From a virus: a stretch of DNA of 47,097 bases. A program made the position numbers and the translations under genes. Of the stretch, positions 378 to 39,779 are shown one piece after another; positions within the stretch are counted from its first letter, which is position 1; every line of letters starts with the position of its first letter. Under the pieces are notes generated by a model that saw nothing but the letters and a program-made list of their open reading frames with translations, did not search any database and had not been told where the DNA came from. The stretch lies in IMG/VR virus record IMGVR_UViG_3300017963_000093, positions 1-47,097 of that record. The stretch is one strand, 5' to 3'.

Positions 378-782
378 ATGTACAAAATATACCTATCATT
401 TCCGATGACCAGAGCCCGGCCGTCCGAGAAAGCCATAGTTCAGCAGATGCGCCATGAGCTGGCCGAGCGCGGATTTCATTATTTTGATCCGGCGCTCAAG
501 GTCGGGGAGCACTCGCTTCTAGCGGAGCAGGAAATTGACTTTTTGGAAATGGGCAGCTGTGACGGGCTGGTGGCGGTGTGGACTCCTACCGCTTACCTGT
601 CGTACGGGGTGTGTGCAGAATTAGAGTGGGCCCGGCGCCATTTCAAGCTCCCATTCCGGGTATGGAAGCCCGGACCCGCTCAGATGTCGGAGTGGACCAA
701 GTGCACGATCGGGAACCGTCTCCGGACTGCTATTGGTATGGTGTTCGACCCAGATTTTTATGAGAAGTTGGAGTATAGATGA
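378..782 (+). CDS. Nucleoside 2-deoxyribosyltransferase-like / DUF4406-like protein
   Basis: 134 residues. The N-terminus IYLSFPMT resembles the substrate-loop start of the nucleoside 2-deoxyribosyltransferase superfamily (usually YLAGPM). Residues 62-68 (DGLVAVW) match the 'ADxVVA' strand, and GVCAELEWA (77-85) matches the 'G(T/V)xxEIxxA' helix carrying the catalytic glutamate (E81 or E83). Members exchange or hydrolyse the base-deoxyribose bond; phage members may work in nucleotide salvage or on sugar-nucleotide-like ligands. The stop overlaps the next ATG (ATGA at 779-782), so it is translationally coupled to the MazG-like gene. Its start has no clear ribosome site. The superfamily is fairly safe; the substrate is unknown. 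Confidence 0.65.
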   Translation: MYKIYLSFPMTRARPSEKAIVQQMRHELAERGFHYFDPALKVGEHSLLAEQEIDFLEMGSCDGLVAVWTPTAYLSYGVCAELEWARRHFKLPFRVWKPGPAQMSEWTKCTIGNRLRTAIGMVFDPDFYEKLEYR

Positions 783-1213
783 GCGGTCAGAAGAACGATC
801 AAGATAAGATCCAGCTCGAGCTCCTGGACCCGGCCTTCTTGATGGGAGTTGGCGAGATCATGACCTTCGGCGCCAAGAAGTACGCCAAGTACAATTGGAT
901 GGAGGGGATCGAGGCGAGCCGGTTGTTCGGGGCCCTCATGCGGCACATGTGGGCGTTTTGGGATGGGGAGGACATGGACCCGGAGAGTGGCAAGCCCCAC
1001 CTGTGGCACGCCGGGTGCTGTCTCATGATGCTGAACCGGATGTTTCACAACCGGCCGGACCTGGACGACCGGCCTAACTTTAACGGGATGGTTCCCTCAA
1101 ATTACTGTCATATATGCGGAACGACAGTGAAACATGACTATTTAGGGATGGACAAGCCGGCGCAGTGCTACTGTGGAGAATTGAAAAATGAAACTACTGA
1201 TAGTGGGAAGTGA
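779..1213 (+). CDS. DUF5664 (dATP/dGTP diphosphohydrolase-like, MazG-type) protein with C-terminal zinc ribbon
   Basis: 144 residues. The N-terminal two thirds show the DUF5664 pattern: LLDPAFLMGVGEIMTFGAKKY near the start, then YNWMEG, an R-x-x-x-A-(L/x)-x-R-H helix (LFGALMRHMWAFW), DxExG and HLWHAGCCLMML. This all-alpha MazG-like family removes pyrophosphate from purine dNTPs in the members studied. The C-terminus adds a CHIC...CYC pair that looks like a zinc ribbon. It is coupled by ATGA overlap to the gene before and overlaps the SDR gene after it by 26 bases. Role inferred: dNTP-pool adjustment. The related MazZ of 2-aminoadenine phages comes with PurZ and DatZ, which are not seen here. 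Confidence 0.75.
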   Translation: MSGQKNDQDKIQLELLDPAFLMGVGEIMTFGAKKYAKYNWMEGIEASRLFGALMRHMWAFWDGEDMDPESGKPHLWHAGCCLMMLNRMFHNRPDLDDRPNFNGMVPSNYCHICGTTVKHDYLGMDKPAQCYCGELKNETTDSGK

Positions 1214-2099
1214 GGGCTACATTGGACGCGCCTTATGCCGCCGGTTTACTTTCCGGGATGATATTGAGCTGTTCCGTGTTGATCCTTGTGTTTACGGTCA
1301 GCCGCCTGCTACACCCGCAGTCCAGAAAATTTTCAAAACCAAAGACGTCGTCCGGTATATTGACAAAATCGTCCCGGACCATATCGTCTGGCTCGGCGCC
1401 TACGCACACGACCCGTCCGGGCGCATCAATACCACCATCGCTATTCGGAATAATGCTCGAAGGGTCGCCGTGGCTCTCTCCGGGACAGGCTGTCCTTACA
1501 CCGCTGTCTCGTCACTCTCCGTCTTCGCTGAAGGTGCATACCCAGAGTCTAAACGATATCTCGAGCAAGCTCTTGTCGCGGCCGGGGACTTTGGTGCCCG
1601 TGGATCCCTTCTTCGGTTCGGGACAGTGTTCGGCGTCCCGAATCCCGGCGACGCAGAGTCTTTTCGCGCACACCTCCTGCTCAATCGGATGTCCATCGAC
1701 GCGGTCACCAAAGGAAAGATTACCGTTACGCATCCAACTAAAAGGCGACCAGTCCTGGCTCTGCGTAAGGCCGTCCACGCCCTGGAGCGGGACATTTTCT
1801 CGGAGGGCCCCCGCGGCACCATTTCGAACCACTACGACACATGTGGCACACTTCAGGAGTTTGCCCAGCTCGTCCAGCTCAAGGTCGCCATGAAGAAGCC
1901 AGACAGTCCTGTTGAGATCGTGGTCCCCGACAACGCGCCGGACCTTGACAACCGGGACTACGGGTGGGGCGAGTTCGAGCCGATGGAGATTAACCTGGAG
2001 CTCAGTACCCTGATCCATTCGGTCGGAGTGTACGACGGCGCCGATCAGTTCAAGGCCCTGTACGGATTTGTGGAAAAGAATGAGGATGGAACGCTCTAA
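1188..2099 (+). CDS. NAD(P)-dependent sugar-nucleotide epimerase/dehydratase (extended SDR)
   Basis: 303 residues, normal for the extended short-chain dehydrogenase family. The Rossmann dinucleotide motif GSEGYIG is at residues 7-13, a serine stretch (VSSLS, 107-111) sits where the catalytic Ser/Thr belongs, and the YxxxK pair is Y118/K122 (YPESK). These enzymes epimerise, dehydrate or reduce nucleotide-linked sugars. A GGAGAA site precedes the ATG at 1188, which lies inside the end of the DUF5664 gene. The DegT aminotransferase two genes downstream is the usual partner: SDR makes a keto-sugar nucleotide and the transaminase aminates it. The precise sugar cannot be read from the sequence. Confidence 0.85.
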   Translation: MKLLIVGSEGYIGRALCRRFTFRDDIELFRVDPCVYGQPPATPAVQKIFKTKDVVRYIDKIVPDHIVWLGAYAHDPSGRINTTIAIRNNARRVAVALSGTGCPYTAVSSLSVFAEGAYPESKRYLEQALVAAGDFGARGSLLRFGTVFGVPNPGDAESFRAHLLLNRMSIDAVTKGKITVTHPTKRRPVLALRKAVHALERDIFSEGPRGTISNHYDTCGTLQEFAQLVQLKVAMKKPDSPVEIVVPDNAPDLDNRDYGWGEFEPMEINLELSTLIHSVGVYDGADQFKALYGFVEKNEDGTL

Positions 2100-2322
2100 A
2101 ACAATTATATTTACCCAGCCGGATCCCGCCGAGGTGAGGGCCACCTGGACGGGGTTTATGGCACAAGAGGATCTGATTGTTCCAGGATACGGTCGTTACT
2201 CGTACTGGGACATTGCACAAGCCCTCCACGCGGTGGAGTTTATCAAAACTAACCGGACTCTCCTTCATAAGCGAGGGTTCCAGCGTCGAATGAAAAAGGC
2301 AGGATGTAATGGAATTGTATAA
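2080..2322 (+). CDS. Small protein of unknown function between SDR and DegT genes
   Basis: 80 residues from the ATG at 2080 (GGAAAAG upstream; a second ATG lies at 2086 and a TTG at 2068). Not recognised. It is basic at the C-terminus (KRGFQRRMKKAGC), has an aromatic mid-section (GRYSYWDIAQALHAVEF) and no predicted membrane segment. It overlaps the SDR gene by 20 bases and the DegT gene by 14, so it is co-translated with the sugar enzymes and may serve the same pathway, but nothing in its sequence proves this. Confidence 0.6.
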   Translation: MRMERSKTIIFTQPDPAEVRATWTGFMAQEDLIVPGYGRYSYWDIAQALHAVEFIKTNRTLLHKRGFQRRMKKAGCNGIV

Positions 2323-3328
2323 ACCACCGCGACTTACGGGAAAGTACCTCGACAAAGTCTTGGCCTCCCGGTGGTTGACCGCGGGGCCCATGTGCGAGAG
2401 GTTCAGAGAGGCTGTAGCAGAGAAGCTAAAGGTGGGGCCCGACCGGATCGCGCTCGCGGCCCGGGCTACGAGTGGGTTCCAGGCGGTGCTGGATATGATT
2501 TGCTACCATGACGCGCTGGGGGAGGAGCCGGAGGACTATCCGACAATTGATTGTACGCACGCGACCTTTGTCGGGATTCGGCATGCGATCTCACATGCTG
2601 GGATGTGTACGGGCTGGGACCGGGACTGGCGGTCTCGGCCTGATATTGTGGTCAAAACTGATATTGGAGGACGGAGGCTGGCAATTGAAGATGAAGATAT
2701 GTCTTCCCGCTACTTTGTGGCGAATCGCTTACCTTATCCGAAATGGTATATTCACGACGCGTGTCACTCTTGGCTGCCTGATCCTGCCGCCGACTTTGCG
2801 GTCCTCTCTTGCTATCCAACGAAACCTGTGCCGGGCGCTGAAGGCGGGGTCGTGGTTTGTAAAGACCCAGAACACGCCCGGGAGATTGAATCTTGGTGTT
2901 CTTCTGGACTTTCTCCAGCGTTTAACCCCACAAGACTTGGAGGCACTGAACCAAGCGTACCTGGCCGAGAAACGCATCTCACAGACGTGGCGGCCGCGCT
3001 CAATCTTGAGGCGTTGGAGGTGTCGGATCGTTACATGGCTGGGATTCGGCTTTCGTGGCAGAAGCTGGCGCGTGCTGGACAGAATTGGGAGGTCCCTTTT
3101 CGGTGTCAGCCGTTGGTACCGTATCTCTTTCAAGTGGAAGTACGGGATGTGGCCGAAGTTCGTGCGGAGTTGGCGAAATGGGGCGTCCCGACTGCGTGGA
3201 ATTTTCCGCCGGCGCCGCTCGTGACTCTCCCGTGCCGGCCCGACATGGGGATCCGGGAGGCCGAGCTGATTATCAAGTTTACCCGGCGGGCCATTGAGGC
3301 TGTGGAAAGTCGACGAGTCGCAAACTGA
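2309..3328 (+). CDS. DegT/DnrJ/EryC1/StrS-type sugar aminotransferase
   Basis: 339 residues, slightly short for this PLP-dependent family (about 360-390). The N-terminal SRWLTAGP (20-27) matches the family's 'WLTTGP' signature, the PLP phosphate-binding stretch is ARATSGFQAVL (51-61), HDACHSW (149-155) matches the 'xDAAQS' motif with the PLP-ring aspartate at 150, and YPTKPVPGAEGG (169-180) holds the Schiff-base lysine K172. These enzymes aminate keto-sugar nucleotides with glutamate as donor. It ends the plus-strand block and is preceded by the SDR gene that would supply the keto substrate; the formyltransferase at 34668 could act on the new amine. The region around position 100 looks condensed compared with bacterial members. 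Confidence 0.85.
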   Translation: MELYKPPRLTGKYLDKVLASRWLTAGPMCERFREAVAEKLKVGPDRIALAARATSGFQAVLDMICYHDALGEEPEDYPTIDCTHATFVGIRHAISHAGMCTGWDRDWRSRPDIVVKTDIGGRRLAIEDEDMSSRYFVANRLPYPKWYIHDACHSWLPDPAADFAVLSCYPTKPVPGAEGGVVVCKDPEHAREIESWCSSGLSPAFNPTRLGGTEPSVPGRETHLTDVAAALNLEALEVSDRYMAGIRLSWQKLARAGQNWEVPFRCQPLVPYLFQVEVRDVAEVRAELAKWGVPTAWNFPPAPLVTLPCRPDMGIREAELIIKFTRRAIEAVESRRVAN

Positions 3329-24323: not shown

Positions 24324-25259
24324 TTAAGCGATGTAGGGCACGAACCCCGTCCCGCCTCCACCGGCCTTCTCGGTCCGGTAGATCATGGTCGCCTCGGCGC
24401 TGACCTGGAACCTGGTCCGGAGACCGTCCCTGGCGAGCGTCTCGGTTCTCAGCGGGGTGAGGAACCCAACCTCGAAGTAGCTCGGGTCGAGCAGGACCAC
24501 GGAGTTTCCGTAGGTCGTCTTCGAGGCACTTTTCAGCTGGTCGCGGCTGAAGTAGATGTCGACGTTGCCGAAGTCGCTCTCGTACTTGTCGACCACAAGC
24601 ATCTGCGTCTTCGCCATCGCGGGGATGTTGTAGCGCAGCTTCGTGGAGTAGAGCGAAATCGTCCGCTTGATGAGAGCGTTGACAAACGCCGTGTTGGGCC
24701 GGATGTCAACGTTGTTGTCCACGTACAGCTGGATCAGATCGCCGAAGACTTCCTCGGTGAGGGTCGTTCCGGAACTGTCCGTGAAGTTCGTGGAGAGGAC
24801 GTTCAGGAGCCCGCCGAACTGCCGGGCTGCACTGGTGGCACCGGTGGCCGCCGATCCGCGGTGGAGGGCGTGCTCGATGTCATTCAGTGTCGATTCGACA
24901 GCCTTCTGCTCCTGGTAGAGGTACATATCGTTGAAGCCCTTGTGCTCCACCGACCTCTGGGTGTCGGACACGTACCCCCAGCGAGCGAACTGCTGGACGT
25001 GCGTGAACGTACGGGAAGGAGTCGTTTGCGCCTGGTCGGTCGCCTGGACACCTTCGATGTAGGCGTTGTGCGCCCTGGAAGGAAGGGAATCCTCCATCCA
25101 CTCGATGAAGGTTGTGTTGACCCGGGACTTCCGGAAAAGGCCAAGCGCCGGCCGGTCGACCGGGCTGACATTCTCCACGAAGTCACGCAGGTCCTCAGGG
25201 ATCGACCCACCCTGCGGGCGGGCCGCGGCAGTAAACTCCTGCCAAGTCAAAAGAGCCAT
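24324..25259 (-). CDS. Major capsid protein, SU10-like (DUF5309 type)
   Basis: 311 residues, typical for this HK97-fold family. The pattern agrees: FVENVSPVDRPALGLFRKSRV near the start, EWMEDSLP, an EG(V)QATD loop, YVSDTQRSVEHKG, then DIEHALHRGSA and a long helical/beta C-terminal half. The C-terminus has a Gly-rich tail. It follows the scaffold gene after 3 bases and is followed by a terminator, the classical arrangement. AGGTAA precedes the ATG. Subunits build the icosahedral head; there is no large N-terminal delta domain, consistent with a separate scaffold. Confidence 0.85.
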   Translation of the reverse strand: MALLTWQEFTAAARPQGGSIPEDLRDFVENVSPVDRPALGLFRKSRVNTTFIEWMEDSLPSRAHNAYIEGVQATDQAQTTPSRTFTHVQQFARWGYVSDTQRSVEHKGFNDMYLYQEQKAVESTLNDIEHALHRGSAATGATSAARQFGGLLNVLSTNFTDSSGTTLTEEVFGDLIQLYVDNNVDIRPNTAFVNALIKRTISLYSTKLRYNIPAMAKTQMLVVDKYESDFGNVDIYFSRDQLKSASKTTYGNSVVLLDPSYFEVGFLTPLRTETLARDGLRTRFQVSAEATMIYRTEKAGGGGTGFVPYIA

Positions 25260-28923: not shown

Positions 28924-29633
28924 TTTTTACCGTTCAGTAACTGCTTGTAGGCCGGCATCTCCGACTCAAATTTCACCAGCTGGGGGTCCTCCACCAGCGC
29001 CATGGTCGCGGCGTCTATTTTTCCTGCTTCTTTGTAGGCTGCCCAGACTCGGGCCCGCTCGGCGGCGTCGAGGTATCCGACGTCGAGGAGCCGGCTATTT
29101 GTGACCACGCGCACGGAGGCAGGGTCGTCATGGATTCCCACTGGGCAGTGTATGATCCGACTTTCGGTGTCCGGGAAGGACGTACCAGGGCGGTCCTTAA
29201 AAAAGACAGGCGAGACATGCGGTGGGATCCTTTCGTTTGTGTGTTCCAAGTCGTCCCAAAAGAACGCCTTCTTCATGTCGATGATGTCGGCGCCCATGGT
29301 CATGTACTGCTTCACTTCGTCCGGGTCCTCCAGGAGGTGGTCGTCGTCCCAGAAGCCAATGTACTTGGGATTGTACTTACGGATCTGTTCGAGCTGCCAC
29401 TGGCGCATGACCATAAAGTGCTCGCCGTTCTCGTCGACGACGGGAAACGGAGCCCTTTGACTAACAGCGCCCTCAGTACCATCCAAGATCGAGGCGATGT
29501 CCAACTCGCACCGGTCCTCTGTCAGCTGAATAATGCTATTGGGCCAGGCCTCACTGATCTGTTCCACGATCAGCCGGAGCGGCCACGGGCGCTTGTGGAC
29601 CAGGATCATCACGCCGAGGTCAACGTTCTGCAT
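28920..29633 (-). CDS. Glycosyltransferase-like protein (GT-A fold)
   Basis: 237 residues. It opens with a beta strand (LGVMILVHKRPWPLRLIVEQ) like GT2-type transferases and carries a DDDH metal-site candidate in YIGFWDDDHLLEDPDEV at about residue 90-105. A second acidic stretch (FFWDD) follows. The nucleotide-sugar donor cannot be told. It overlaps the methyltransferase gene by 14 bases and the portal start by 4. It may be one of the enzymes that decorate the virion or the DNA. Confidence 0.55.
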   Translation of the reverse strand: MQNVDLGVMILVHKRPWPLRLIVEQISEAWPNSIIQLTEDRCELDIASILDGTEGAVSQRAPFPVVDENGEHFMVMRQWQLEQIRKYNPKYIGFWDDDHLLEDPDEVKQYMTMGADIIDMKKAFFWDDLEHTNERIPPHVSPVFFKDRPGTSFPDTESRIIHCPVGIHDDPASVRVVTNSRLLDVGYLDAAERARVWAAYKEAGKIDAATMALVEDPQLVKFESEMPAYKQLLNGKK

Positions 29634-30234
29634 AAATCATCCCCAGCTTCGTGTCGATCTCGGTCAGCTTCCAGTCTCCCAAGTGGTTTAGTACTGCCCG
29701 GCGCACGTCTATGAACTGACCCGGGTCGAACTCCTGGCCTTGGACGGCCTTGCCGCAGTCGTGGAACAACATGATATCGATCCGGGTCTCGTCCCGGATC
29801 TGTTTGATGTCCTTCGCGGCCCCCTCGTAGCTATGGTCACCGTCAATGAAGGCCCAGTTGCACTTCCAGTGCCCGATCGGCATGTCCTCGGCCTTGGCCG
29901 AAAGGGCCCAGATCTCAGGCCATTCCGGGTGGTCTTTCCAACGCTGGAGACAGTCAATTGTGTAGACCGTGCTGGCCAAGGTGGCGCCGTCGATGTCGTT
30001 TCCGCGCCGGAGCCCTTCGGCAATATACCGTGTGGAGACGGCCTGATCAGTGCCGATCTCTACAGCCGAGCCCTGCATGAAAGCCAGATTGGCCAGGACC
30101 TTGCCCTCGTCGTGAAACACCGAACCGTGCCCTTCAGGCTGGTGGAACTGAGGGGGTCCCGTAAAGTGATGGTCCTGTGGCTCGAACGAGCACCCAAAAG
30201 ATTTTATGAACTCGTCAACTGAAACCTTCCTCAC
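29620..30234 (-). CDS. SAM-dependent methyltransferase, class I (sugar O-methyltransferase-like)
   Basis: 204 residues from a GTG at 30234, which overlaps the previous stop as GTGA. The SAM site is AVEIGTDQAVSTRYIAEGL, and AFIDGDHSYEGAAKDIKQI matches the acidic 'DGDHxYxxxxxD' signature of the macrocin-O-methyltransferase / Methyltransf_24 group; DIMLFHDCG follows. Members methylate sugar hydroxyls or act near glycan genes. It sits in a cassette with two glycosyltransferase-like proteins and a HAD phosphatase, which supports a glycan substrate. Not a DNA methyltransferase: the NPPY/DPPY-type motif is absent. Confidence 0.75.
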   Translation of the reverse strand: MRKVSVDEFIKSFGCSFEPQDHHFTGPPQFHQPEGHGSVFHDEGKVLANLAFMQGSAVEIGTDQAVSTRYIAEGLRRGNDIDGATLASTVYTIDCLQRWKDHPEWPEIWALSAKAEDMPIGHWKCNWAFIDGDHSYEGAAKDIKQIRDETRIDIMLFHDCGKAVQGQEFDPGQFIDVRRAVLNHLGDWKLTEIDTKLGMIYAER

Positions 30235-30482: not shown

Positions 30483-31083
30483 ACGCGGCGATCCTACTGT
30501 CTACCTTTTCAAGGATATCCCCGAGGTTAAAACCGGCTGGACGAGCCCATACCGGATCGTTATAGTGTCGTGACCAGAAGAGGTGCTCCCCTTTGTCACC
30601 GACCACCGTACCGTAGCTATCAGGCCAAGGGTCCCGATTAGCCAAGAGCGTCGCCCCTTCGAGGAGATTTGCTGGGTCATTGCACGGGCCACCGGCAGCG
30701 AGATTGACTGGGAGGCGATCACGATGTATCGCTTCGAGGTCGAACCCGAGCCACCAGGCGCCGGGGTAGCCGTGGGCGGTTTGTTTTCCGTCTGGGGTTC
30801 TTGTGACATACTCTGCGGCCTCGATCGGGGCCCGCGGCGGGTCGAGCCCGCCGGGGCCGGGTAGAAAGTCGTGTTCCGTGATAACGTGGTACCGGCCCGG
30901 GAGTTCTTGGATCCCTTCCCAGATCAGAGCCAGGCAGTGTTGATGTTGTAACTGGGCGCCAGGATTTTCCCACCAGACCAGCCCCATGCGGTCCCGGTGT
31001 TGGTACGCGAGCTTGTTCCAGATGGCCCTGAGCCTATCGTGACGCGGGCCCTCAAAGCACTTGATTAGATGGAACGTGATCAT
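30466..31083 (-). CDS. Putative glycosyltransferase (GT-A-like)
   Basis: 205 residues from the ATG at 31083, chosen for its ATGA overlap with the HAD gene. The N-terminus (MITFHLIKCFEGPRHDRLRAI) and YHVITEHDFLPGPGG at about residue 66-80 suggest a GT-A fold with an E-H-D metal motif, and AYPGAWW-like GYPGAWWLGFDL follows. The family is not certain. Context (HAD phosphatase before, methyltransferase after) supports a carbohydrate role. Confidence 0.4.
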   Translation of the reverse strand: MITFHLIKCFEGPRHDRLRAIWNKLAYQHRDRMGLVWWENPGAQLQHQHCLALIWEGIQELPGRYHVITEHDFLPGPGGLDPPRAPIEAAEYVTRTPDGKQTAHGYPGAWWLGFDLEAIHRDRLPVNLAAGGPCNDPANLLEGATLLANRDPWPDSYGTVVGDKGEHLFWSRHYNDPVWARPAGFNLGDILEKVDSRIAAYEATF

Positions 31084-31361
31084 TCCGGGAACCCTGTGGT
31101 ACTGTCCAGGAGATTGATCTTGTCGTCTACGATCAGATACTCGTCCGCCAAGGGTTTGGCGATTGCTCCGTGGATCCGGACAAATGACGTGAGCTGGGCG
31201 ACCCGGCACTTGTTAGCCCCGCACGAGAACAGATAGATATCGTAACCGTCCTCCGCGAGCTTGAGAATGCCTTCCTTGGCATTGGGCAGCATCTCATCGG
31301 AGCCGTTTGGGAACACGACCCCATCCAGATCAAGGAGTGCAACTTTGCGCGGCGAGCTCAT
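31080..31361 (-). CDS. HAD-superfamily phosphatase (short)
   Basis: 93 residues from the ATG at 31361, fixed by the ATGA overlap with the stop of the small basic gene. Motif I is LLDLDGVVFPNG (D-x-D), motif II lies in YLFSCGANK, and a late acidic DEYLIVDDK is motif IV. Such short HAD proteins without a cap domain hydrolyse small phosphorylated substrates, including sugar phosphates. Its place in the modification cassette suggests a sugar-phosphate or nucleotide-sugar step. Shorter than most HAD enzymes. Confidence 0.7.
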   Translation of the reverse strand: MSSPRKVALLDLDGVVFPNGSDEMLPNAKEGILKLAEDGYDIYLFSCGANKCRVAQLTSFVRIHGAIAKPLADEYLIVDDKINLLDSTTGFPE

Positions 31362-31492
31362 CGCCCCCGTTTCGGCTTCCACCCGGTCTCCCGCAACGTG
31401 CCATAAATGTACCGACGCGCCCTCTCCGAAGTAGTGGAACCGAACTTCTTTTTTGCTTTTTGTTTCAGTTCGCGTTCCAATTTCTTAGGCAT
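31358..31492 (-). CDS. Small basic phage protein (44 residues)
   Basis: 44 residues with GGAGG 8 bases before the ATG and an ATGA overlap with the HAD gene. Sequence pattern MPKKLERELK ... GTLRETGWKPKRGR resembles a widespread tiny phage protein found near packaging genes. Highly basic, probably nucleic-acid-binding. Function not known. Confidence 0.7.
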   Translation of the reverse strand: MPKKLERELKQKAKKKFGSTTSERARRYIYGTLRETGWKPKRGR

Positions 31493-31528
31493 CGTCGTCG
31501 CCTCCAAATAATGGATCCAGAATCAACA

Positions 31529-31771
31529 TTACTTCAACTTTTTCTGGATCTTACGCACCAGAACGTACCCGCCCGCCAACAGACCGAGCGCCCCGGCCAC
31601 AATGGCGCCCCAGGGACCGAAACCCTCAGCGGTATCGATCACAGTATTGATAGGCGCGTCCGGGGCCACCACGCCAGTTGTGGGATCGTACCCAACCACC
31701 CCGTCAATGGTCCCGCACCCGTACAGGAACGTAACCATAAACACAAAAATCGCTGCGTAGAGCTTCTTCAT
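31529..31771 (-). CDS. Small lipoprotein with C-terminal membrane segment
   Basis: 80 residues. A type II signal peptide is seen: basic start (MKK), hydrophobic core and lipobox LYGC at about 16-19. A second hydrophobic segment (GAIVAGALGLLAGGYVLV, about 55-72) and a basic tail follow. One lipid anchor and one membrane span are compatible with a spanin-like, superinfection-exclusion or holin-like role. It is encoded between terminase and glycan genes. The stop overlaps nothing downstream; a 36-base gap follows. Confidence 0.6.
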   Translation of the reverse strand: MKKLYAAIFVFMVTFLYGCGTIDGVVGYDPTTGVVAPDAPINTVIDTAEGFGPWGAIVAGALGLLAGGYVLVRKIQKKLK

Positions 31772-31968
31772 TTTCCTTTTCTCCGTCGGGCCTTTGTTGC
31801 CGCCCGGTTTGCGGCACCTGTTACGTCACCGTGCCGGCGGCGCATCTCTTTATCAAGGGCCCTTTGAAGGGCACTGTCTTTGTACTCTGAACCGAGCTGT
31901 TTTTTAATTCCCTCTACGGTGTACTTGTTGTCACGCCCAAATCCTTGTGGTCTGCGTTTCTTACCCAT
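31768..31968 (-). CDS. Small basic protein after the large terminase
   Basis: 66 residues from the ATG at 31968 (GGAGTG site upstream). Rich in K and R, especially at both ends (GKKRRPQGFGRDNK, NRAATKARRRKGK); probably binds nucleic acid. It overlaps the terminase stop by 8 bases and the lipoprotein gene by 4. No family recognised. Confidence 0.55.
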   Translation of the reverse strand: MGKKRRPQGFGRDNKYTVEGIKKQLGSEYKDSALQRALDKEMRRRHGDVTGAANRAATKARRRKGK

Positions 31969-33517
31969 AATCACTCCATAGATCGTCAGCTGTGTTTTCC
32001 TTTTCCAAATCTTCGGGCGTCCAGCGTTGGAGCGCCTTTACCTCGGCGGCGGTTAGCGGCGGTGGACACAGGACAGTGTACGCGACAGTGTCCATGGGGT
32101 CCTTGAATTCTTCACTGACCTTCTTGAACAGGCCCTTGACGGGGTTGTCCACGTCGAGGTACCCGTAGTGGCGAAAGGCCTTGTCTAAGTTCGTCAGGCT
32201 CCGGAACACCATGATCTGGGGCTGGTTCGACGGCCCGATCTCGAACCGTTTGTCCCACCGGAGCATCTTGGAAATTACTTGGTGTCGGTACTCGAGGTTC
32301 CCGGTGTTCGGGACGTGTGCGTCGAAGTCGAGCCCGACGTCGGCCATTTGGTCGACCCAGCACGTTTCTTTGTACCCGTGCCGTTGATGCTCTGCTTTAC
32401 CAAATCGTGGATCGCAGATGCGACGGCTTGCTGGAAAACGGCCCTCGGCATTTCTAATGATTGTTGCGTACTCGACAGGTGTAAGACCACCCGACCGCGC
32501 TTTGAAGAAATCGTAATTGGGCCACTCTCGGTAAAAATAGTAAGATTGTGTGTTGGGATCATATGCCCACCAGAGCATGAACGCCGGCCGCTTGTGGTGC
32601 GGGTCAACCGTCAAGCCACGGACCCAGTCCCTGGGGATGGCAAAGTCGTCGACCAGGTGCACATCGGGATCGTACTCTTCATAGACCCGGTCGCCCATTA
32701 CCTCGAACTCGCCCCGGAGCCGGGCGGCCTTCTCCCGTTCCGGCCACTCGCCGGCCTCCTCGAACGCCTTCCGCTTGTCGGCGGTCATGGCCGGGTTGTC
32801 CCGCTGCACCACCTGGACGATGTACACGTCGTCGGGCGGCTCCCGGTAGAATGGCATCATCCAGGCGGACCGGGCCCCGAGCGGCGTTAGGGTGAACCAC
32901 ATCGGCCCCAGGTTCGCTGCGAGCCGGGCCTGCATGGCGTTGTAGATCTTTTGCCGGACTGGTTCGTCGCACCACCACCAGTCCGCCACAAACCCCTCAA
33001 ACTGGAAATCGTCCTGCTCCTCGGAACTGAAAATTACCCGGCTCCCGTTCGGGAGCGTGAACTTCTCCGGGATCCCACCCTGGCCCCGGACTACGTGGAG
33101 TCCGGACTTTCGGCGTCGCAAAGCCTGAGGTAGAATCCCTTCAAGGAACGGCCACAGGTTCTCACCAATTCCCCTTCCACGAGAAAGTCCGGTGGTAATG
33201 ACTCCAAGATTCGGGACTTTGATGGGGATCCCGTCCGGACGTCGGATCCAGAAGGCTGGATCGATGTGATCTCGAGGAGGAAGGTCACCATCCGGGGTGA
33301 GTCGGAGATCTGGAATTTCCCAGAAACGGTACCCGTAACTATGTCCGAGCGCTTCGTGACCCCCGGCAGTAGTCTTGCCACTCTGGTTAGCACCGAAGAA
33401 AAACCGGCGACGATACGTTTTACCAGCTTCATGAAACTGTGTCTGTTTCCTGTGGTTCTTGATCAGGTTCCGGTAGTACAGTAGGGGCGCCGCTTTGATC
33501 CTCCGGTCCAGGATCAT
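31961..33517 (-). CDS. terL: Terminase large subunit (packaging ATPase/nuclease)
   Basis: 518 residues from the ATG at 33517 (AAGGCG upstream); a GTG at 33595 would add 26 residues. Walker A is FGANQSGKTT (about 41-50), Walker B WWWCDEP (about 180-186), with the catalytic glutamate, and the coupling stretch FTLTPLG follows. The C-terminal RNase H-like nuclease shows acidic sites in GLTVDPHHKR, ICDPRFG and DPMDTVAYTV. The enzyme drives DNA through the portal and cuts the concatemer. It overlaps the small terminase by 89 bases. Confidence 0.9.
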   Translation of the reverse strand: MILDRRIKAAPLLYYRNLIKNHRKQTQFHEAGKTYRRRFFFGANQSGKTTAGGHEALGHSYGYRFWEIPDLRLTPDGDLPPRDHIDPAFWIRRPDGIPIKVPNLGVITTGLSRGRGIGENLWPFLEGILPQALRRRKSGLHVVRGQGGIPEKFTLPNGSRVIFSSEEQDDFQFEGFVADWWWCDEPVRQKIYNAMQARLAANLGPMWFTLTPLGARSAWMMPFYREPPDDVYIVQVVQRDNPAMTADKRKAFEEAGEWPEREKAARLRGEFEVMGDRVYEEYDPDVHLVDDFAIPRDWVRGLTVDPHHKRPAFMLWWAYDPNTQSYYFYREWPNYDFFKARSGGLTPVEYATIIRNAEGRFPASRRICDPRFGKAEHQRHGYKETCWVDQMADVGLDFDAHVPNTGNLEYRHQVISKMLRWDKRFEIGPSNQPQIMVFRSLTNLDKAFRHYGYLDVDNPVKGLFKKVSEEFKDPMDTVAYTVLCPPPLTAAEVKALQRWTPEDLEKENTADDLWSDYG

Positions 33518-34076
33518 CTGCGCCTTGTACGTCTGTTCCAGCCTCTGTCTGGTCGATAATTCTAAACTCGGCGGGGAGTCGGGCTGCGTTTTCACGAATA
33601 ATCCGGCGTAGGTCCTCGTCAGAGCAGGTGTCCAGCTTCACCCCTCCGGAGTATGAGTGCTTGTGTTCAACGACGCGACTGAGCTGGCCCATGCGTTCGT
33701 AGAACAGTTTGATCGCCGGCACGTCACCGCGCATGGCGGCCTGGAACAGGGCGGCATCGACCAGCCCGGCCCGGTGCCGGAAAATTTGATGAATCTGGCG
33801 ACTGACCCAGGCCATGGCCAGTGGATCAGCTATCGTGTCCCGGACCTCCGGCTCTGTCATCCCGGAGTAATCGGCGATCGCTACGAGCGTCGTACTCCCG
33901 GCAAGGAGGGCCTCCCCCATCCGGAGCACCGGTTCCGTAGGTACGAACCGGGCGAGCTCCTGATCGTCCACATTGAGGGCGGCTTCCCAGGCCTTCGCTA
34001 CTGCGGGCGAGAGCGCCGTGCGACGCTGGGGCTCGTTCTTTTTCTTTTGGCGGGTCCCGACCCGCTTCTTCGCCAT
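33429..34076 (-). CDS. terS: Terminase small subunit-like protein
   Basis: 215 residues. After a basic N-terminus, a helical region (LVAIADYSGMTEPEVRDTIA) looks like an HTH DNA-binding domain. RAGLVDAALFQAAMRGDVPA followed by IKLFYERMGQLSRVVE is the oligomerisation motif common in small terminases. The C-terminus is acidic and Pro/Gln-rich. It lies directly before the large subunit. The first part overlaps the GIY-YIG gene by 79 bases; GGGAAG precedes the ATG. Confidence 0.75.
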   Translation of the reverse strand: MAKKRVGTRQKKKNEPQRRTALSPAVAKAWEAALNVDDQELARFVPTEPVLRMGEALLAGSTTLVAIADYSGMTEPEVRDTIADPLAMAWVSRQIHQIFRHRAGLVDAALFQAAMRGDVPAIKLFYERMGQLSRVVEHKHSYSGGVKLDTCSDEDLRRIIRENAARLPAEFRIIDQTEAGTDVQGADDPGPEDQSGAPTVLPEPDQEPQETDTVS

Positions 34077-34396
34077 TTAACTTCCCAGACCTTGCCTTTA
34101 CAGAGACCGAGGTTCATTCCGCGGTTGAGCTCAGGTAGGAGCCATAAAATCAGGATCCCCTCTACTCGAAGCCTTGACACCAGCTCGTTGATGTGGTATA
34201 CTATAGCATGAGTAAATGGTTTCTCCTGGTGCTGGATCAGTCGCTGATTCACATTGTACGTTTGTCCGACGTAAAGCAACTTGTCCTTCTGATACAGCAG
34301 GTAAACGCCGGCGATGTTGTCAACCACAGCGCCCCTCTGGTACTCTGACCGTGCCGTCTGGCCGAGGGTGGCATTGACCATGTCTGTAACAGTCAT
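33998..34396 (-). CDS. GIY-YIG endonuclease
   Basis: 132 residues. The N-terminal GVYLLYQ and LLYVGQT are the GIY and YIG strands; the catalytic Arg lies in NVNQRLIQH, the Glu in RLRVEGILI, and LLPELNRG follows. After about residue 105 the sequence is a basic run-on that lies over the small terminase start. Freestanding GIY-YIG nucleases of phages act as homing enzymes or in packaging and host-DNA cleavage; this one is the first gene of the late block, directly before the terminase. Confidence 0.8.
   Translation of the reverse strand: MTVTDMVNATLGQTARSEYQRGAVVDNIAGVYLLYQKDKLLYVGQTYNVNQRLIQHQEKPFTHAIVYHINELVSRLRVEGILILWLLPELNRGMNLGLCKGKVWEVKWRRSGSGPAKRKRTSPSVARRSRPQ
34174..34202 (+). promoter_or_regulatory. 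Sigma-70 promoter for the plus-strand block
   Basis: TTGACA (34174-34179), a 17-base spacer and TATACT (34197-34202) with a TGG just before the -10. It lies antisense inside the GIY-YIG gene and points at the first plus-strand gene (34426), giving a leader of about 215 bases. Confidence 0.8.
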
Positions 34397-34425
34397 CTCA
34401 CCCTTATGGAGTTTTGACGGAAGTA

Positions 34426-34674
34426 ATGAAACTGGAACGTGTTATAGAGCTTGCAGGTAAGTGGGGGTATGACGAGGAGTTAGGTCAGATATGGCTGGAG
34501 CGGGAAATGATCCTGAAAAAGGTGAACCGGGTCCCGCCACCGTGCCGGGAACGACGGCTCCGGTCTGTACTTAGGACAATCCAGGCCCGGATGCACCGGA
34601 AGGACCGGCCGCCCCAGGAGCGGACCGCGGGCCTGGCCGACTTCAGCCCAGACAAGATCCGGAGGAAATGGTGA
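34426..34674 (+). CDS. Hypothetical first gene of the plus-strand block
   Basis: 82 residues from the ATG at 34426 (CGGAAG upstream; a TTG lies 12 bases earlier). Rich in R, E and K, helical, with no recognised family. The stop overlaps the start of the formyltransferase gene. As the first gene behind a strong promoter it may be made early and act on the host, but its sequence gives no hint of how. Confidence 0.55.
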   Translation: MKLERVIELAGKWGYDEELGQIWLEREMILKKVNRVPPPCRERRLRSVLRTIQARMHRKDRPPQERTAGLADFSPDKIRRKW

Positions 34675-35261
34675 ACATACTCCTGCTCACATCCCCCTCA
34701 CGGCCCCGTACTTCGCCGCTGTGCGACTTTTTGGCCGTCCAGGGCTCGTTGAAGGTCGAAACCCGCAAACCCCGCCTGTGGGCTCCTGAGGCTCCTCAGT
34801 GGGATCTGATAATTAGCGACGGGTACCGGTGGATCATACCCCCCGACATGCTCGGGGCGGTCCGGCGCCCCCCGATCAACATCCACCTCGGGAACCCCCA
34901 GAACCGGGGCGTCTTCCCGAACTTCTTCTGTTGGCTAGAGGACCGGGCCCCGGGCTTCATGATCCACGAAATGACCAACACGATCGACAACGGGCGCCTG
35001 TACGCGGCCGGTTGGCACCAGTACAAACCCAAGGTCCTGGAAGACGAGACCTTACGAACCACCTGGAAAGATTTGTGGGAGTACGCCTTTATGCGGTTCC
35101 GAAAGTCTTGGGTCCACATTGAACGGGGCGTCCCGTTAAGTAACAGGATCCTAGCGGTCCATGACAAACCCCACACTATGAAAGAATTCAGGCGTTGGTT
35201 TTCTCAGTGCTCGAAAGGCTGGGACACGCCTGTGGAGGAAGTGAGATGTCTGAAGATATGA
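34668..35261 (+). CDS. N-formyltransferase (sugar or methionyl-tRNA formyltransferase fold)
   Basis: 197 residues, matching the catalytic domain only. INIHLGNPQNRGVFPNFF (70-87) matches the 'INxHxSLLPxxRGxxP' signature; the catalytic triad N71, H73 and D107 (in TIDNGRL) is present, and DLIISDGYRWIIPPDML precedes it as in formyltransferases. The donor would be N10-formyl-tetrahydrofolate. There is no C-terminal tRNA-binding domain, which argues for a sugar-amine substrate such as that made by the DegT enzyme at 2309. Start at ATG 34668 or GTG 34671 after GGAGG. Confidence 0.8.
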   Translation: MVNILLLTSPSRPRTSPLCDFLAVQGSLKVETRKPRLWAPEAPQWDLIISDGYRWIIPPDMLGAVRRPPINIHLGNPQNRGVFPNFFCWLEDRAPGFMIHEMTNTIDNGRLYAAGWHQYKPKVLEDETLRTTWKDLWEYAFMRFRKSWVHIERGVPLSNRILAVHDKPHTMKEFRRWFSQCSKGWDTPVEEVRCLKI

Positions 35262-35488
35262 ACGAGATCCTGAAACAGGCCGCGGCCCAGAACGACGACA
35301 CTGGCCGCGCCGCTCGGTGGTGGCAGGAACAGATCCGGCAAAGCACCAAAATCACCGAAGACGGTGTCGTATGCCACCACACCACCATGGCCGTGACCGC
35401 GGGCCAGTCGCACCCGTTTGTGTGCCTGGCCTGCGGCGCCAAGTTCAAAAAGGACCCCCACGATGGCTACCACCTACGAACCCCATGA
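35246..35488 (+). CDS. Small zinc-ribbon-like protein
   Basis: 80 residues from the ATG at 35246 (GGAGG upstream, 16-base overlap with the formyltransferase). N-terminal half helical and acidic; C-terminal CHH and CLACG (about residues 45 and 63) suggest a zinc site. No family recognised. Confidence 0.55.
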   Translation: MSEDMNEILKQAAAQNDDTGRAARWWQEQIRQSTKITEDGVVCHHTTMAVTAGQSHPFVCLACGAKFKKDPHDGYHLRTP

Positions 35489-35816
35489 CTTCACCAACTG
35501 GTGCTGGCGCCTCCGGAAGGACTACCCCGGGGCCCGAGTGGAGATCTACACGGTCCCGGGGTGGGCCCCGCGACTGAAAAAACTCCTGATCGACACGTAC
35601 GGGCTGCGGGGCGTGATCCAGCACAGCCTGAGCTCACTCCGGATCAAGGGCCCGATCAACGTCGAGAAGGCGGTCCTGCTCTTTTCAGACGACGAGAAGT
35701 TGCGGGCCCTGGCCGGCGAGTACCGGCTCGCGTGTCGGTCGCTGCGTGACATGGGGCACCAGCAGGACCTGGTGCGCCGCCTGATCAAGGAGGACGAAGC
35801 GCGGTGGCCCGTATGA
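35463..35816 (+). CDS. Hypothetical early protein
   Basis: 117 residues from the ATG at 35463 (AAAGGA upstream). Mixed alpha/beta look, with many R and L residues and a basic C-terminus. Not recognised. It overlaps the gene before by 26 bases and the HNH gene by 4, within a tightly coupled early operon. Confidence 0.55.
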   Translation: MATTYEPHDFTNWCWRLRKDYPGARVEIYTVPGWAPRLKKLLIDTYGLRGVIQHSLSSLRIKGPINVEKAVLLFSDDEKLRALAGEYRLACRSLRDMGHQQDLVRRLIKEDEARWPV

Positions 35817-36151
35817 GTATTGGCGCCTGGGTCGATGAAGTGTATCAACGAATAGATCAGCTGAACCGCCGCCAGTACAAGCGCCGATGGATGGCGGCCC
35901 ACCGCCGGTTCATCGCGGAACTGAAACTAAGCTGCGGCTGCTGCTTCTGTCGGTACCGGTGCTGCGCCGCGGCCCTCGAGTTCCACCATGTACAGGGCAG
36001 AGACAGGTCAGAGCAGTTTAGTAACATGGGCATGGACCGGCTCAGGGACGAGGTGAGTAAGTGCCTGGTCGTTTGCGCGAACTGTCATAGAGAGTTACAT
36101 GACTCGGAAAGGAAAAGACCAGGACAGAGCAAGAGAAGAAATATGCCTTAG
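35813..36151 (+). CDS. HNH endonuclease
   Basis: 112 residues from the ATG at 35813 (ATGA overlap). Two zinc-type cysteine pairs (CGCCFC and CANC), the first catalytic His in LEFHHVQG and the C-terminal LVVCANCHRELH form an HNH (beta-beta-alpha-metal) site. Phage HNH proteins serve in packaging, homing or host DNA nicking. It lies at the other end of the early operon from the formyltransferase; the terminase and the GIY-YIG nuclease are just across the divergent promoter region. Confidence 0.8.
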   Translation: MSIGAWVDEVYQRIDQLNRRQYKRRWMAAHRRFIAELKLSCGCCFCRYRCCAAALEFHHVQGRDRSEQFSNMGMDRLRDEVSKCLVVCANCHRELHDSERKRPGQSKRRNMP

Positions 36152-36180
36152 AGCAGATTCTGGCACAGATCAATGTCGGT

Positions 36181-36294
36181 ATGGATCGGCTCAATACGTA
36201 CAATGACCAGCTGAGCCGAATGCTGACAATCGTTGAAAGGATGGTCAACCAACAGGACCAGCTCCTGAAACTCCTTGCGGTCCGAGGAAAGTGA
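36181..36294 (+). CDS. Small coiled-coil ORF (start unsure)
   Basis: 37 residues from the ATG at 36181. An amphipathic open frame (LEQILAQINVGMDRLNTYND ...) extends upstream to 36103 without a start codon, so a non-ATG start or a lost base is possible. No ribosome site at 36181. Low support. Confidence 0.3.
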   Translation: MDRLNTYNDQLSRMLTIVERMVNQQDQLLKLLAVRGK

Positions 36295-36540
36295 TTGGGG
36301 CCCACAAAGGACCCAGTAGTGACTTATTTACATAACCACATACTAAGTACATATATGCGCGGAAACCCCCCGGGCCCCACCCCCACCCCGGCACTGCTGT
36401 GTGCACAGCGCCAGGTGCAGGCCAGGACAGGACTTAGGCAGTAGGAACAGGGCGCTGGGCCGGAGGCCTGTATGATTTCCATACACTGGTGAATCTGTCA
36501 AATTCTGGTACATACAGGCTCTGTATCTGTACAAGCACTG

Positions 36541-36600
36541 CACCAGCCCTGCACCAGCCCTGCACCAGCCCTACACCAGCCCTGCACCAGCACCAGCACC
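36541..36600. repeat. Tandem 11-bp repeats (CACCAGCCCTG)
   Basis: Four consecutive 11-base units (one with a final A) start at 36541, 36552, 36563 and 36574, followed by CACCAG half-units to about 36600 and preceded by a partial unit. They may be iterons bound by an initiator protein. Confidence 0.8.
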
Positions 36601-36758
36601 ATACCACACCGGGACCAACCTACCACACCACACTACAGTATCTGGCCCTGTTACGGAACAGATTTAATTCTTGGCCTAATTCTTGCATTCTATTAAATAA
36701 ATTTTAATTTGTTGGGCGCCGCCCTAAATCCTTTTCTTTTTTGTTCTTAAAAAATTTT

Positions 36759-36787
36759 TTGACAAAACCTTGCTTTCATGGTAAATT
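36759..36787 (+). promoter_or_regulatory. Sigma-70 promoter for the 36827 operon
   Basis: TTGACA (36759-36764), 17-base spacer and TAAATT (36782-36787), at the edge of the AT-rich stretch. A 5' leader of about 33 bases with AAAGGAG leads to the ATG at 36827. Confidence 0.75.
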
Positions 36788-36826
36788 TGCTTGACTCGAA
36801 AAAACAAAAAACGAAAGGAGCAAACT

Positions 36827-36955
36827 ATGAAGCATACCATGGCTGCCTGTCTCGTGTACTGGGCCCTGCGCCAGGACGGCCTGTCGCACCGCATGGCTAT
36901 CATGGCTGCGCGGCGTGTGTTCTATGGCTATGACTCAATATGGGAGGTACTATGA
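36827..36955 (+). CDS. Small early protein (42 residues)
   Basis: 42 residues with AAAGGAG upstream and an ATGA overlap with the next gene. Sequence (MKHTMAACLVYWALRQDGLS ...) contains several M, A and R residues and no clear domain. First gene of a strong early promoter; unknown function. Confidence 0.6.
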   Translation: MKHTMAACLVYWALRQDGLSHRMAIMAARRVFYGYDSIWEVL

Positions 36956-37647
36956 AGCTACTAAGTGAATCCAGCGCGAAGATCGCCAAGACCAACAAGG
37001 GCACAGGCTACCTTACTGCGGTACTGTTCCTGGCGCCGCACAAGGAGTCAGGGTGCATGAATACCTGTCCGTATGCGGATGGGTGTGAGGCAACATGCCT
37101 GAATACGTCCGGGCGCCTCAAGTTCGACAGTGCCAGGGCCGCAAGGGTGCGTCGTACGGAATGGTTCAAGAACGACAGGGCCGGGTTCGTTGCCCAGCTG
37201 CACAAGGATATCACGGTCCTGGAACGCAAGGGAAAGCGACTGGGCAAACCCGTTGCGGTACGCCTGAACGGCCTGTCGGATCTGAGGTGGGAACGTATCG
37301 CTCCGGATCTGTTCACCGAACACCCTGACGTACAGTTTTACGATTACACCAAAGGGTTAGTGAGATACCAAGAATGGCGCAGAACTTCTGTTTTCCCAAA
37401 GAACTATCATTTGACCTTTTCTGCCAGTCCAAGTAGTTCAAGGCATTTGAGCGCTATACTACGGTGGGGAGGAACCGTCGCCATGGTATTCCACGACGTA
37501 CCACCCGGACTCGAAATGGAACACGGACATGTGCCCGTGATCGACGGAGACACCCATGACGCCCGCTGGCTGGATCCCAAGGGCGTGATCGTGGGCCTGA
37601 AGGCAAAGGGCGCCGCGGTCAAGAGTTCGGTACAATTTGTGAGGTAA
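36952..37647 (+). CDS. DUF7227-like (phage GP88-type) cysteine-rich protein
   Basis: 231 residues from the ATG at 36952 (GGGAGGT upstream). A CxxTCPYADGCEATC-type cysteine cluster near residue 35-50, KPVAVRLNGLSDLRWE, FYDYTKG, NYHLTFSAS and VIDGDTHDARWLDP ... VGLKAKG match a phage/plasmid family of unknown function. The four cysteines may bind a metal or Fe-S cluster. Family recalled from pattern; no enzymatic role is established. Confidence 0.7.
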   Translation: MKLLSESSAKIAKTNKGTGYLTAVLFLAPHKESGCMNTCPYADGCEATCLNTSGRLKFDSARAARVRRTEWFKNDRAGFVAQLHKDITVLERKGKRLGKPVAVRLNGLSDLRWERIAPDLFTEHPDVQFYDYTKGLVRYQEWRRTSVFPKNYHLTFSASPSSSRHLSAILRWGGTVAMVFHDVPPGLEMEHGHVPVIDGDTHDARWLDPKGVIVGLKAKGAAVKSSVQFVR

Positions 37648-37649
37648 CT

Positions 37650-37850
37650 ATGAGCGACCACATGTTGATACCGATCAGGAAAGAACTGGTTGCCCGCATG
37701 AAAGATTGGGCAGCTTACCGCAGTTCACTTTGTCGCCGTGAGGAGGATTTGTCCAAACCAAGAGTGCCTCCAAGAGACTGGGAAAACTCGGACGAGGAAG
37801 GTACCGATCTTCTCTGGGAAGTTTTAGAGATCCTGAAAGCGCACACGTAG
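37650..37850 (+). CDS. Small hypothetical protein
   Basis: 66 residues with GAGGTAA before the ATG, 2 bases after the DUF7227-like stop. Charged, helical (IRKELVARMKDWAAYRSSLC, EGTDLLWEVLEILKA). No family recognised; likely co-transcribed with the gene before. Confidence 0.6.
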   Translation: MSDHMLIPIRKELVARMKDWAAYRSSLCRREEDLSKPRVPPRDWENSDEEGTDLLWEVLEILKAHT

Positions 37851-37872
37851 TGGGCTTGGGGGCGTAACAGAT

Positions 37873-37909
37873 TTATACGCAAGTCCGTATCGTTAACCAT
37901 TATACGCAA
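37873..37909. repeat. Direct repeat TTATACGCAA before the 37922 gene
   Basis: TTATACGCAA occurs at 37873-37882 and again at 37900-37909, 27 bases apart, with a GTTAAC palindrome between. The second copy ends just before the AAGGAG ribosome site. It may be an operator or a pair of protein-binding sites. Confidence 0.6.
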
Positions 37910-37921
37910 AGGAGTATAGCA

Positions 37922-38074
37922 ATGGACGATCATGTTGCACTCGACCTGATTCAAGACGTCATTAACGACCAGGACCAGGAAGTCCTTGACGCCCTGGAAC
38001 GGATCCGCGACCTTGTGAAGGACACGGGCCGCGACGTAGTCAGACCGGACATGAAAGCCTACGAGGAGGCGTAA
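37922..38074 (+). CDS. Small acidic protein (50 residues)
   Basis: 50 residues with AAAGGAG 8 bases upstream of the ATG. Rich in D and E, one amphipathic helix (DLIQDVINDQDQEVLDALER). Small acidic early phage proteins often mimic DNA or bind host factors, but nothing specific is visible here. Confidence 0.6.
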   Translation: MDDHVALDLIQDVINDQDQEVLDALERIRDLVKDTGRDVVRPDMKAYEEA

Positions 38075-38104
38075 CCGGAACGTGGGCGGGGCTTTGGATA
38101 TTTC

Positions 38105-38133
38105 TGGACAATTTTACGGTTATGTGTTACACT
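38105..38133 (+). promoter_or_regulatory. Sigma-70 promoter for the DUF932-like gene
   Basis: TGGACA (38105-38110), 17-base spacer and TACACT (38128-38133); the ATG at 38155 follows with an AAAGGAG site. Confidence 0.65.
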
Positions 38134-38154
38134 GGTAGTGAAAGGAGCAAAAAC

Positions 38155-38850
38155 ATGCTTTATGTCGTATCCCACCAGAACCGTCTCGTTCGGAACTCAC
38201 TGGGCCTCCTCGAAGCTGAGGAAAAACTTGCCCACAAGAACTACACCGCTTGCTGCCCCGAGGACATAGCTAAGAAGCTCGAGGGGCGCGGCTATGGGGT
38301 TTCCCGGCAGATCAGGGGCCGCCAGGCCTTCCTGGAGGCGCGGCTCCCTGGGGGCAACCTCGGGGACTACAGGGCAACCGCCAAGATTGCCTTTGATCAC
38401 GCGGGTAAGCGCTCGGTCCGGATCGCACCGGGCGCCTTGAGGATGGCATGCTACAACCAGTTCACGAGTGCGAACCAGATCCGGCTCCACCACTGCGGGG
38501 CGGACATCAAGCGGTTCAATGAGAGGCCCTGGGAGTTCCTGGAGGATCTGCTGGCCCCGGCCGTGGAAATGGCGAACCGTATCGAGGCCCTCCGGCCCGT
38601 CATAAGTAACAACCTGGGCCGCCGCTGGATCCACTGCCTGCTCGGCGGGTACCCGAAGCTCTTGGGTAAGGTCCTGCCCCGGTTCTCCCGGTACTCCCTC
38701 GAGAACAGGTGGATCCCCGGCCCCTGGGCGGTGCTACAGGCCTTCACCGACACCCACTCGCCCACGCTCGAGCGGGCCGTGGGGGAGCTCGTGACGGACC
38801 ACTACCAGGAGCTGGCCGCCGGAATTGTCCCCGAATACCAGCTGAACTAA
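38155..38850 (+). CDS. DUF932-like phage protein
   Basis: 231 residues from the ATG at 38155 (AAAGGAG upstream). The central stretch RSVRIAPGALRMACYNQF ... RLHHCGADIKRF matches the 'RxxPxxxRxxCxNxx...xxxH' core of DUF932/phage-plasmid-like proteins, which are widespread in mobile elements and of unproven function (a role near DNA repair or replication is often suggested). It has its own promoter. Confidence 0.6.
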   Translation: MLYVVSHQNRLVRNSLGLLEAEEKLAHKNYTACCPEDIAKKLEGRGYGVSRQIRGRQAFLEARLPGGNLGDYRATAKIAFDHAGKRSVRIAPGALRMACYNQFTSANQIRLHHCGADIKRFNERPWEFLEDLLAPAVEMANRIEALRPVISNNLGRRWIHCLLGGYPKLLGKVLPRFSRYSLENRWIPGPWAVLQAFTDTHSPTLERAVGELVTDHYQELAAGIVPEYQLN

Positions 38851-38857
38851 GCCCGGG

Positions 38858-39104: not shown

Positions 39105-39124
39105 TGTAAATCGTTATTTTTCGA

Positions 39125-39170: not shown

Positions 39171-39779
39171 ATGAAAAACGGGTACAAAATCGAACCGGGG
39201 GCCAACCTGAGCGGAGCCGACCTGCGCGGAGCCGACCTGCGCGGAGCCAACCTGAGCGGAGCCGACCTGCGCGGAGCCAACCTGAGCGGAGCCGACCTGC
39301 GCGGAGCCGACCTGTACGAAGCCAGCCTGTGCGGAGCCAACCTGTACGAGGCCGACCTGTACGGAGCCATCCTGTACGAGGCCGACCTGAGCGGCGCCAA
39401 CCTGCGCAGAGCCAACCTGCACGAGGCCAGCCTGCGCGAGGCCAACCTGTATGGGGCCAAACTCCCCCACTACAAAATCTGTCCCGAAACCGGCGCCTTT
39501 GACGCCTGGAAGGCAGTCCACCACCGGGGTGGGAAGGCCGTGATCAAGATCCGGATCCCAAAACGCGCTAAGAGGTGCTCGTCGTTGGTAGGGCGTAAGT
39601 GCCGGGCCTCTTTTGTTAAAGTCCTGGAGGGTGCCGGGATTTCCCCTACCCACTCAAGGAAACTAACTTACATAAAGGGCCAAATTGTGAAGGCCCACGA
39701 TTTTTCCGACGATCCCCGTGTCGAGTGTGCACCGGGGATCCACTTTTTCATGACCAAGCAAGAAGCCGAGGAGTGGTAA
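39171..39779 (+). CDS. Pentapeptide-repeat protein with C-terminal DUF5758
   Basis: 202 residues. Residues about 10-100 are uninterrupted pentapeptide repeats of the A(D/N)LxG/xA type ([20 protein letters not shown] ...), which fold into a right-handed quadrilateral helix that can mimic DNA. The C-terminal half ([36 protein letters not shown]) matches DUF5758, often attached to such repeats in phages. Possible roles are gyrase or host-enzyme binding, or protection; not shown. It has its own strong promoter and ribosome site. The DNA repeats of 15 bases are coding, not CRISPR-like. Confidence 0.85.

Follow-up and report, generated by a model that had tools for sequence, protein, structure and literature searches.

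PseJ of Anoxybacillus kamchatkensis (PDB 6ci2, 6ci4 and 6edk) is a compact N-formyltransferase of 192-197 aa, and its size, fold, N/H/D triad, SxGYR motif and C-terminal GWDTPV are common to the viral protein described here. The two are about 33-36% identical over the aligned part, but PseJ has HISYLP where the viral protein has HLGN-P, and relatives of the PseJ pathway genes PseB, NeuB and cytidylyltransferase are absent here, leaving only a distant DegT. VioF, Rv3404c, WbkC and other sugar 4-N-formyltransferases also share the triad, the NPxNRG motif and the N10-formyl-THF class with the viral protein; they differ in their lower scores (1e-5 or weaker) and in a longer C-terminal region that falls outside the alignment. 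Among viruses, Mimivirus has a viosamine pathway with the L136 aminotransferase (Piacente 2012, cited in PMC10117803). Virus-encoded 4-amino-sugar synthesis is thus a shared theme, but Mimivirus is a eukaryotic giant virus, and formylation is not reported in the two reviews consulted.

We analysed a viral sequence of 47,097 nucleotides from IMG/VR (the window), whose features are collected in Table 1. Positions 1-123 are identical to 46975-47097, and because these 123-bp ends match exactly, the record represents a circle of 46,974 bp, very probably a complete genome, even though the class given for it might be taken to mean a linear one. Circularity also bears out the placement, in an earlier note on this DNA, of an SDR and a DegT gene at the far end of the plus-strand block that holds the formyltransferase gene; the two are separated from it by 12,901 bp. 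No known phage gave a whole-genome DNA match to the window, and close relatives of the SDR, DegT and terminase were absent from IMG/VR, apart from the near-identical contig L002/L025. L002 (IMG/VR record 3300017971_003168) is 99.98% identical to window positions 25152-39303 (14.2 kb) and carries a formyltransferase gene 100% identical to that of the window.

Table 1. Positions of the window features discussed in the text.
Feature	Position	Strand	Remarks
Nucleoside deoxyribosyltransferase-like and dATP/dGTP diphosphohydrolase genes	378..1213		head-to-tail overlap with the SDR gene
Extended SDR, epimerase/reductase type	1188..2099	+	SSLSVFA...YPESK, without the 4,6-dehydratase TDE/TSE
DegT/DnrJ/EryC1 sugar aminotransferase	2309..3328	+	catalytic K172 and D150 kept
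FG-GAP repeat protein, 633 aa	14795..16696	-	seven repeat stretches (4e-67); among late genes
GT2 + TPR repeats + GT1/GT4 fusion, 859 aa	21292..23871	-	weak match to peptide glycosyltransferase SunS
Major head protein	24324..25259	-	
Candidate GT-A glycosyltransferase, 237 aa	28920..29633	-	DDD acidic motif (FWDDDH); no family match
Methyltransferase (Methyltransf_24)	29620..30120	-	between terminase and portal genes
Candidate glycosyltransferase, 205 aa	30466..31083	-	by eye only; no family match
Endonuclease genes (GIY-YIG and HNH)	33998..34396 and 35804..36151	- and +	flank the formyltransferase region
Sigma-70-like promoter match	34174..34202	+	TTGACA-17-TATACT, TG before -10, 11/12; consensus match only
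82-aa ORF, function unassigned	34426..34674	+	directly upstream; stop within GTGA of the formyltransferase start
N-formyltransferase, PseJ-like	34668..35261	+	196-197 aa; likely start GTG 34671
80-aa ORF	35246..35488	+	no family match; overlaps the formyltransferase gene at its 3' end
Pentapeptide-repeat protein	39171..39779	+	DUF5758 domain at C-terminus

The open frame of the formyltransferase is present as 197 aa when counted from ATG 34668. GTG 34671 is the more likely start, however, because it has GGAGG 5 nt ahead, forms a GTGA overlap with the upstream stop, and gives an N-terminus (MNILLLTS) that resembles that of the relatives (MKILFLS). The GTGA overlap also suggests that translation of the 82-aa ORF and the formyltransferase is coupled. 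The promoter match lies upstream of this operon, divergent terminase genes are close by, and codon composition is normal for the phage (GC3 0.76). Judging from the flanking endonuclease genes, the formyltransferase gene may have arrived together with homing elements.

The active-site residues N71, H73 and D107 are intact and line up with those of every relative and of PurN, Fmt and ArnA from E. coli; the NRG signature lies at 79-81 and GWDTPV at 184-189. Pfam identified Formyl_trans_N (E 1.3e-5; 25.5 bits, against a slightly higher curated cut-off of 26.1) as the only domain in the 197 aa, so the tRNA-binding C-terminal domain is absent, as the earlier note had stated along with the triad and signature. 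Chance does not explain this match, given the PDB hit to PseJ below and the relatives on 43 other viral contigs. NCBIfam gave dTDP-4-amino-4,6-dideoxyglucose formyltransferase (3e-8, far below that model's own cut-off), and at E<=1 only sugar-type models appeared, the PurN model not among them. In a PDB sequence search PseJ came first (E 5e-17), followed by VioF and Rv3404c (about 1e-6 to 1e-5), with Fmt at 0.27. The PseJ alignment pairs residues 45-191 with PseJ 41-183 and extends to the C-terminal GWDTPV. The protein keeps 26 of 38 conserved positions of the PseJ-like family, including S50, G52, Y53, N79, N85, F144, W148, H169, G184 and T187; apart from G52, these are mostly absent from PurN, Fmt and ArnA.

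Against an HMM of 15 PseJ-like proteins from which it was left out, the window protein scored 93 bits, compared with 81 for the formyltransferase of L003 (a huge phage described below), 77 for ArnA, 59 for Fmt and 35 for PurN. The reverse search ranked PseJ-like proteins at 41-66 bits, the L003 enzyme at 27, Fmt at 10, ArnA at 7 and PurN at 3. In a wider tree, the protein falls on a long branch with L030, L044, L029, L031, L035 and L049 (FastTree support 0.73-0.91); in several of these neighbours, as read by eye, the formyltransferase cluster adjoins a divergent terminase/portal-like pair, much as the window gene lies near its own divergent terminase genes. Sugar N-formyltransferase was the class proposed in the earlier note, and the sequence comparisons, a Foldseek fold search and, weakly, the tree make this assignment very likely correct. 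Within the class the enzyme is PseJ-like and divergent; we do not file it as a PseJ orthologue, because family members left out singly score 168-264 bits against its 93.

The structural comparison suggested earlier gave a similar picture. The AlphaFold model (pLDDT 85, pTM 0.83) was built from an alignment with 14 relatives obtained by profile scans of IMG/VR and bacterial genomes. Foldseek against the PDB returned PseJ entries as the top three matches (TM 0.74-0.79), including a complex soaked with UDP-4-amino-4,6-dideoxy-L-AltNAc. PurN and tRNA formyltransferases were clearly more distant, and grouping with them, which the earlier note had named as a refuting outcome, was not seen. The fold result depends on the sequence result, since the model alignment contained PseJ-like proteins. 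In BFVD, the matches were to giant-virus formyltransferases only.

The earlier note had further proposed that SDR, DegT and formyltransferase together yield an N-formylated sugar nucleotide. Part of this stands: the three genes share a block, and in the DegT the Schiff-base K172 and PLP-binding D150 are invariant in alignments. Its best NCBIfam model is PseC (2e-9, far below the cut-off of that model), and its AlphaFold model (pLDDT 45) was unusable. ArnB led a PDB profile search for the DegT subfamily because ArnB was itself in the alignment, and this was not used as evidence. The SDR fits the proposal less well. It has SSLSVFA at the site occupied by TSE in the GMD of L003 and in the C-terminal domain of ArnA, it gave no PDB match at E<=0.1, and a set of 299 genomes from L018's phylum yielded one weak match. 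Without the dehydratase motif in the SDR, the 4-keto sugar would have to come from the host or from an unrecognised gene. The acceptor could then be an amine that DegT makes from a 4-keto sugar of the host, or it could be one of the host's own amino sugars. The SDR-DegT operon also holds the dATP/dGTP diphosphohydrolase and the deoxyribosyltransferase-like gene. Given also the 12.9 kb between the genes, and that IMG/VR yielded no second, independent phage linking all three, we consider the exact three-gene pathway unlikely in this phage.

Other phages offer fuller gene sets. A scan of IMG/VR with the 15-protein profile found PseJ-like genes on 44 viral contigs, L002 among them. Of the 43 others, 33 carry at least two of PseB, DegT (PseC/ArnB), NeuB and cytidylyltransferase around the gene (tblastn E<=1e-6, up to 10 kb either side within the sequence around the gene), the independent number being lower because of the near-duplicates L011/L012, L046/L047, L052-L054 and L056/L058. 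Several of these clusters adjoin terminase and portal genes. L007 encodes PseB (1e-105), a PseC-like DegT (3e-52), a GNAT, the formyltransferase, a cytidylyltransferase, a short NeuB-like protein and a glycosyltransferase of Maf/PseD type (3e-49), with terminase and portal genes next in line. Gene content is nearly constant across L006, L007, L009, L010, L027, L028, L032, L034, L038 and L042: radical SAM, cytidylyltransferase, oxidoreductase, PseC-like DegT, GNAT, PseJ-like formyltransferase, short NeuB-like protein, PseB and Maf-type glycosyltransferase, then terminase and portal, although not every contig has every gene. From its gene content, this set resembles a pseudaminic-type pathway that the phages carry together with a transferase for it.

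A second cluster type (L008, L011, L012, L033, L036, L040, L043, L050, L051, L055 and L056, on contigs of up to 158 kb) has NeuB and cytidylyltransferase, often with PseB and a PIG-L deacetylase, around the PseJ-like gene; NeuB is full-length on L008 and L011. L014 carries a PseJ-like gene in broken pieces around 10001-10183. The phage nonulosonate clusters (L007, L009, L010, L027, L042, L008, L011, L029 and L044) thus resemble the window in having a PseJ-like gene, often by terminase/portal, but they carry PseB, PseC-like, NeuB, cytidylyltransferase and often Maf-type glycosyltransferase genes that the window lacks. L003, the 735-kb huge phage LR756501, likewise encodes a DegT and a sugar N-formyltransferase. 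It differs in having a GDP-mannose-4,6-dehydratase (GMD)-like gene, in the VioF type of its formyltransferase, and in the closeness of its genes, since GMD-like, formyltransferase, GT, DegT and methyltransferase genes all lie within 3599-8925; this cluster suggests an N-formylperosamine-like sugar. In phages RcZahn and RHph_Y1_11, SDR, DegT and GT genes form operons that include no formyltransferase. Gene content therefore strongly suggests formyl-sugar/nonulosonate pathways in other phages, and the earlier statement that no established phage pathway of the kind was known needs revising in view of L003, with GMD, DegT and sugar formyltransferase within 5 kb, and the 33 contigs with nonulosonate-type clusters. 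Among the open-access papers searched, the only literature covered, none dealt with PseJ, with nonulosonate synthesis by phages or with sugar formyltransferases of phages, which is weak evidence of novelty.

We propose that the product of 34671-35261 would be a compact PseJ-type sugar N-formyltransferase. It would take its formyl group from host N10-formyl-tetrahydrofolate and, through N71, H73 and D107, pass it to the amine of a 4-amino-deoxy sugar carried on a nucleotide. The fold class, the family affinity and the intact triad are established, and from them we infer catalysis, the sugar that accepts the formyl group and where that sugar comes from. The phage DegT would most likely make the amine from a host-provided 4-keto sugar, and the phage GTs would most likely use the product to decorate a virion protein. 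The GT2-TPR-GT4 fusion is a plausible user of the activated sugar: its gene shares a strand with that of the major head protein, with only small ORFs between. The methyltransferase and the two candidate glycosyltransferases of Table 1 are further plausible users. Phage-run modification is favoured because the window has a DegT with its catalytic lysine, a GT fusion and a methyltransferase, and because PseJ-like genes sit in nonulosonate clusters on most of the other phage contigs. The proposal is weakened by the low family score, the loop deletion discussed below, the absence of PseB, NeuB and cytidylyltransferase, the SDR without a dehydratase motif, and the position of the gene, remote from SDR and DegT and bordered in its block by homing endonucleases. 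On balance, we put the chances about equally for and against the enzyme formylating an amino sugar as part of glycan modification run by the phage. The broader idea that tailed phages use their own enzymes to make N-formylated amino sugars, many of them nonulosonic (sialic-acid-like) acids, and attach them to virion proteins, with the window phage as a reduced version using a PseJ-like enzyme and its own GTs, is tentative and rather less probable.

The alternative that survives best, although we think it improbable by a fair measure, is that the substrate is an amino-sugar nucleotide from a surface pathway of the host, and that the enzyme has nothing to do with the SDR and DegT. For example, a pseudaminic-acid precursor would be formylated instead of acetylated by PseH, and the altered flagellar, capsule or LPS sugars would shut out other phages. 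The missing PseB, NeuB and cytidylyltransferase fit this, as does the place of the gene at the head of the plus block, where it has a promoter-like site to itself and is away from the late GT genes. Lone PseJ-like genes near terminase genes also occur on L013, L041, L046/L047 and L059; however, these contigs are partly fragments, so that absent partners are weak evidence, and the phage owns a sugar aminotransferase, a methyltransferase and GTs.

The protein might instead retain the formyltransferase fold without the activity, as a decaying or repurposed form. The HxSxLP loop has lost one residue and carries an S to G change (NIHLGN-PQNRG), unique among 48 aligned PseJ-like proteins, and the deletion could impair catalysis or alter the substrate; the long branch in the tree points the same way. 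However, the triad is intact, the protein is full length, the operon overlaps are tight, codon composition is normal and an identical copy exists on a second contig, all of which make decay or repurposing a distinctly unlikely reading.

Still less probable is that the formylated amine does not belong to a sugar but to an aminoacyl or peptide group, for which the NRPS LgrA offers a model, or to an amino-modified DNA base. In VIA-align the LgrA formylation domain is level with PseJ as a whole-domain match (Z about 20, remaining formyltransferases 16 or less), which makes the fold alone insufficient to fix the substrate, and the gene lies within the early DNA-metabolism block. On the other hand, LgrA, whose substrate is a carrier-bound amino acid, is only about 20% identical compared with 28-36% for PseJ, and neither NRPS nor recognisable DNA base-modifying enzymes were among the window genes scanned. 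Finally, a PurN- or Fmt-like enzyme boosting purine synthesis or initiation, for which one PHROG match (3.4e-4), its family labelled cyanobacterial PurN, and the dATP/dGTP diphosphohydrolase in the SDR operon could be cited, is highly improbable. Sequence, profile and fold comparisons led us to reject PurN or Fmt as the identity: PurN was always the weakest relative, Fmt scored lower and lacks the C-terminal match, and the window protein has no tRNA-binding domain.

If formyl-sugar and nonulosonate pathways do lie beside the packaging and head genes of phages, virions may wear bacterial-type rare sugars, which would matter for the ways in which phages escape or attach to hosts and immune systems. 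The window gene would broaden the range of phage sugar chemistry, and the clusters on related contigs are candidates with nearly complete gene sets. Elsewhere among the late genes of the window, the FG-GAP protein is a possible receptor-binding protein.
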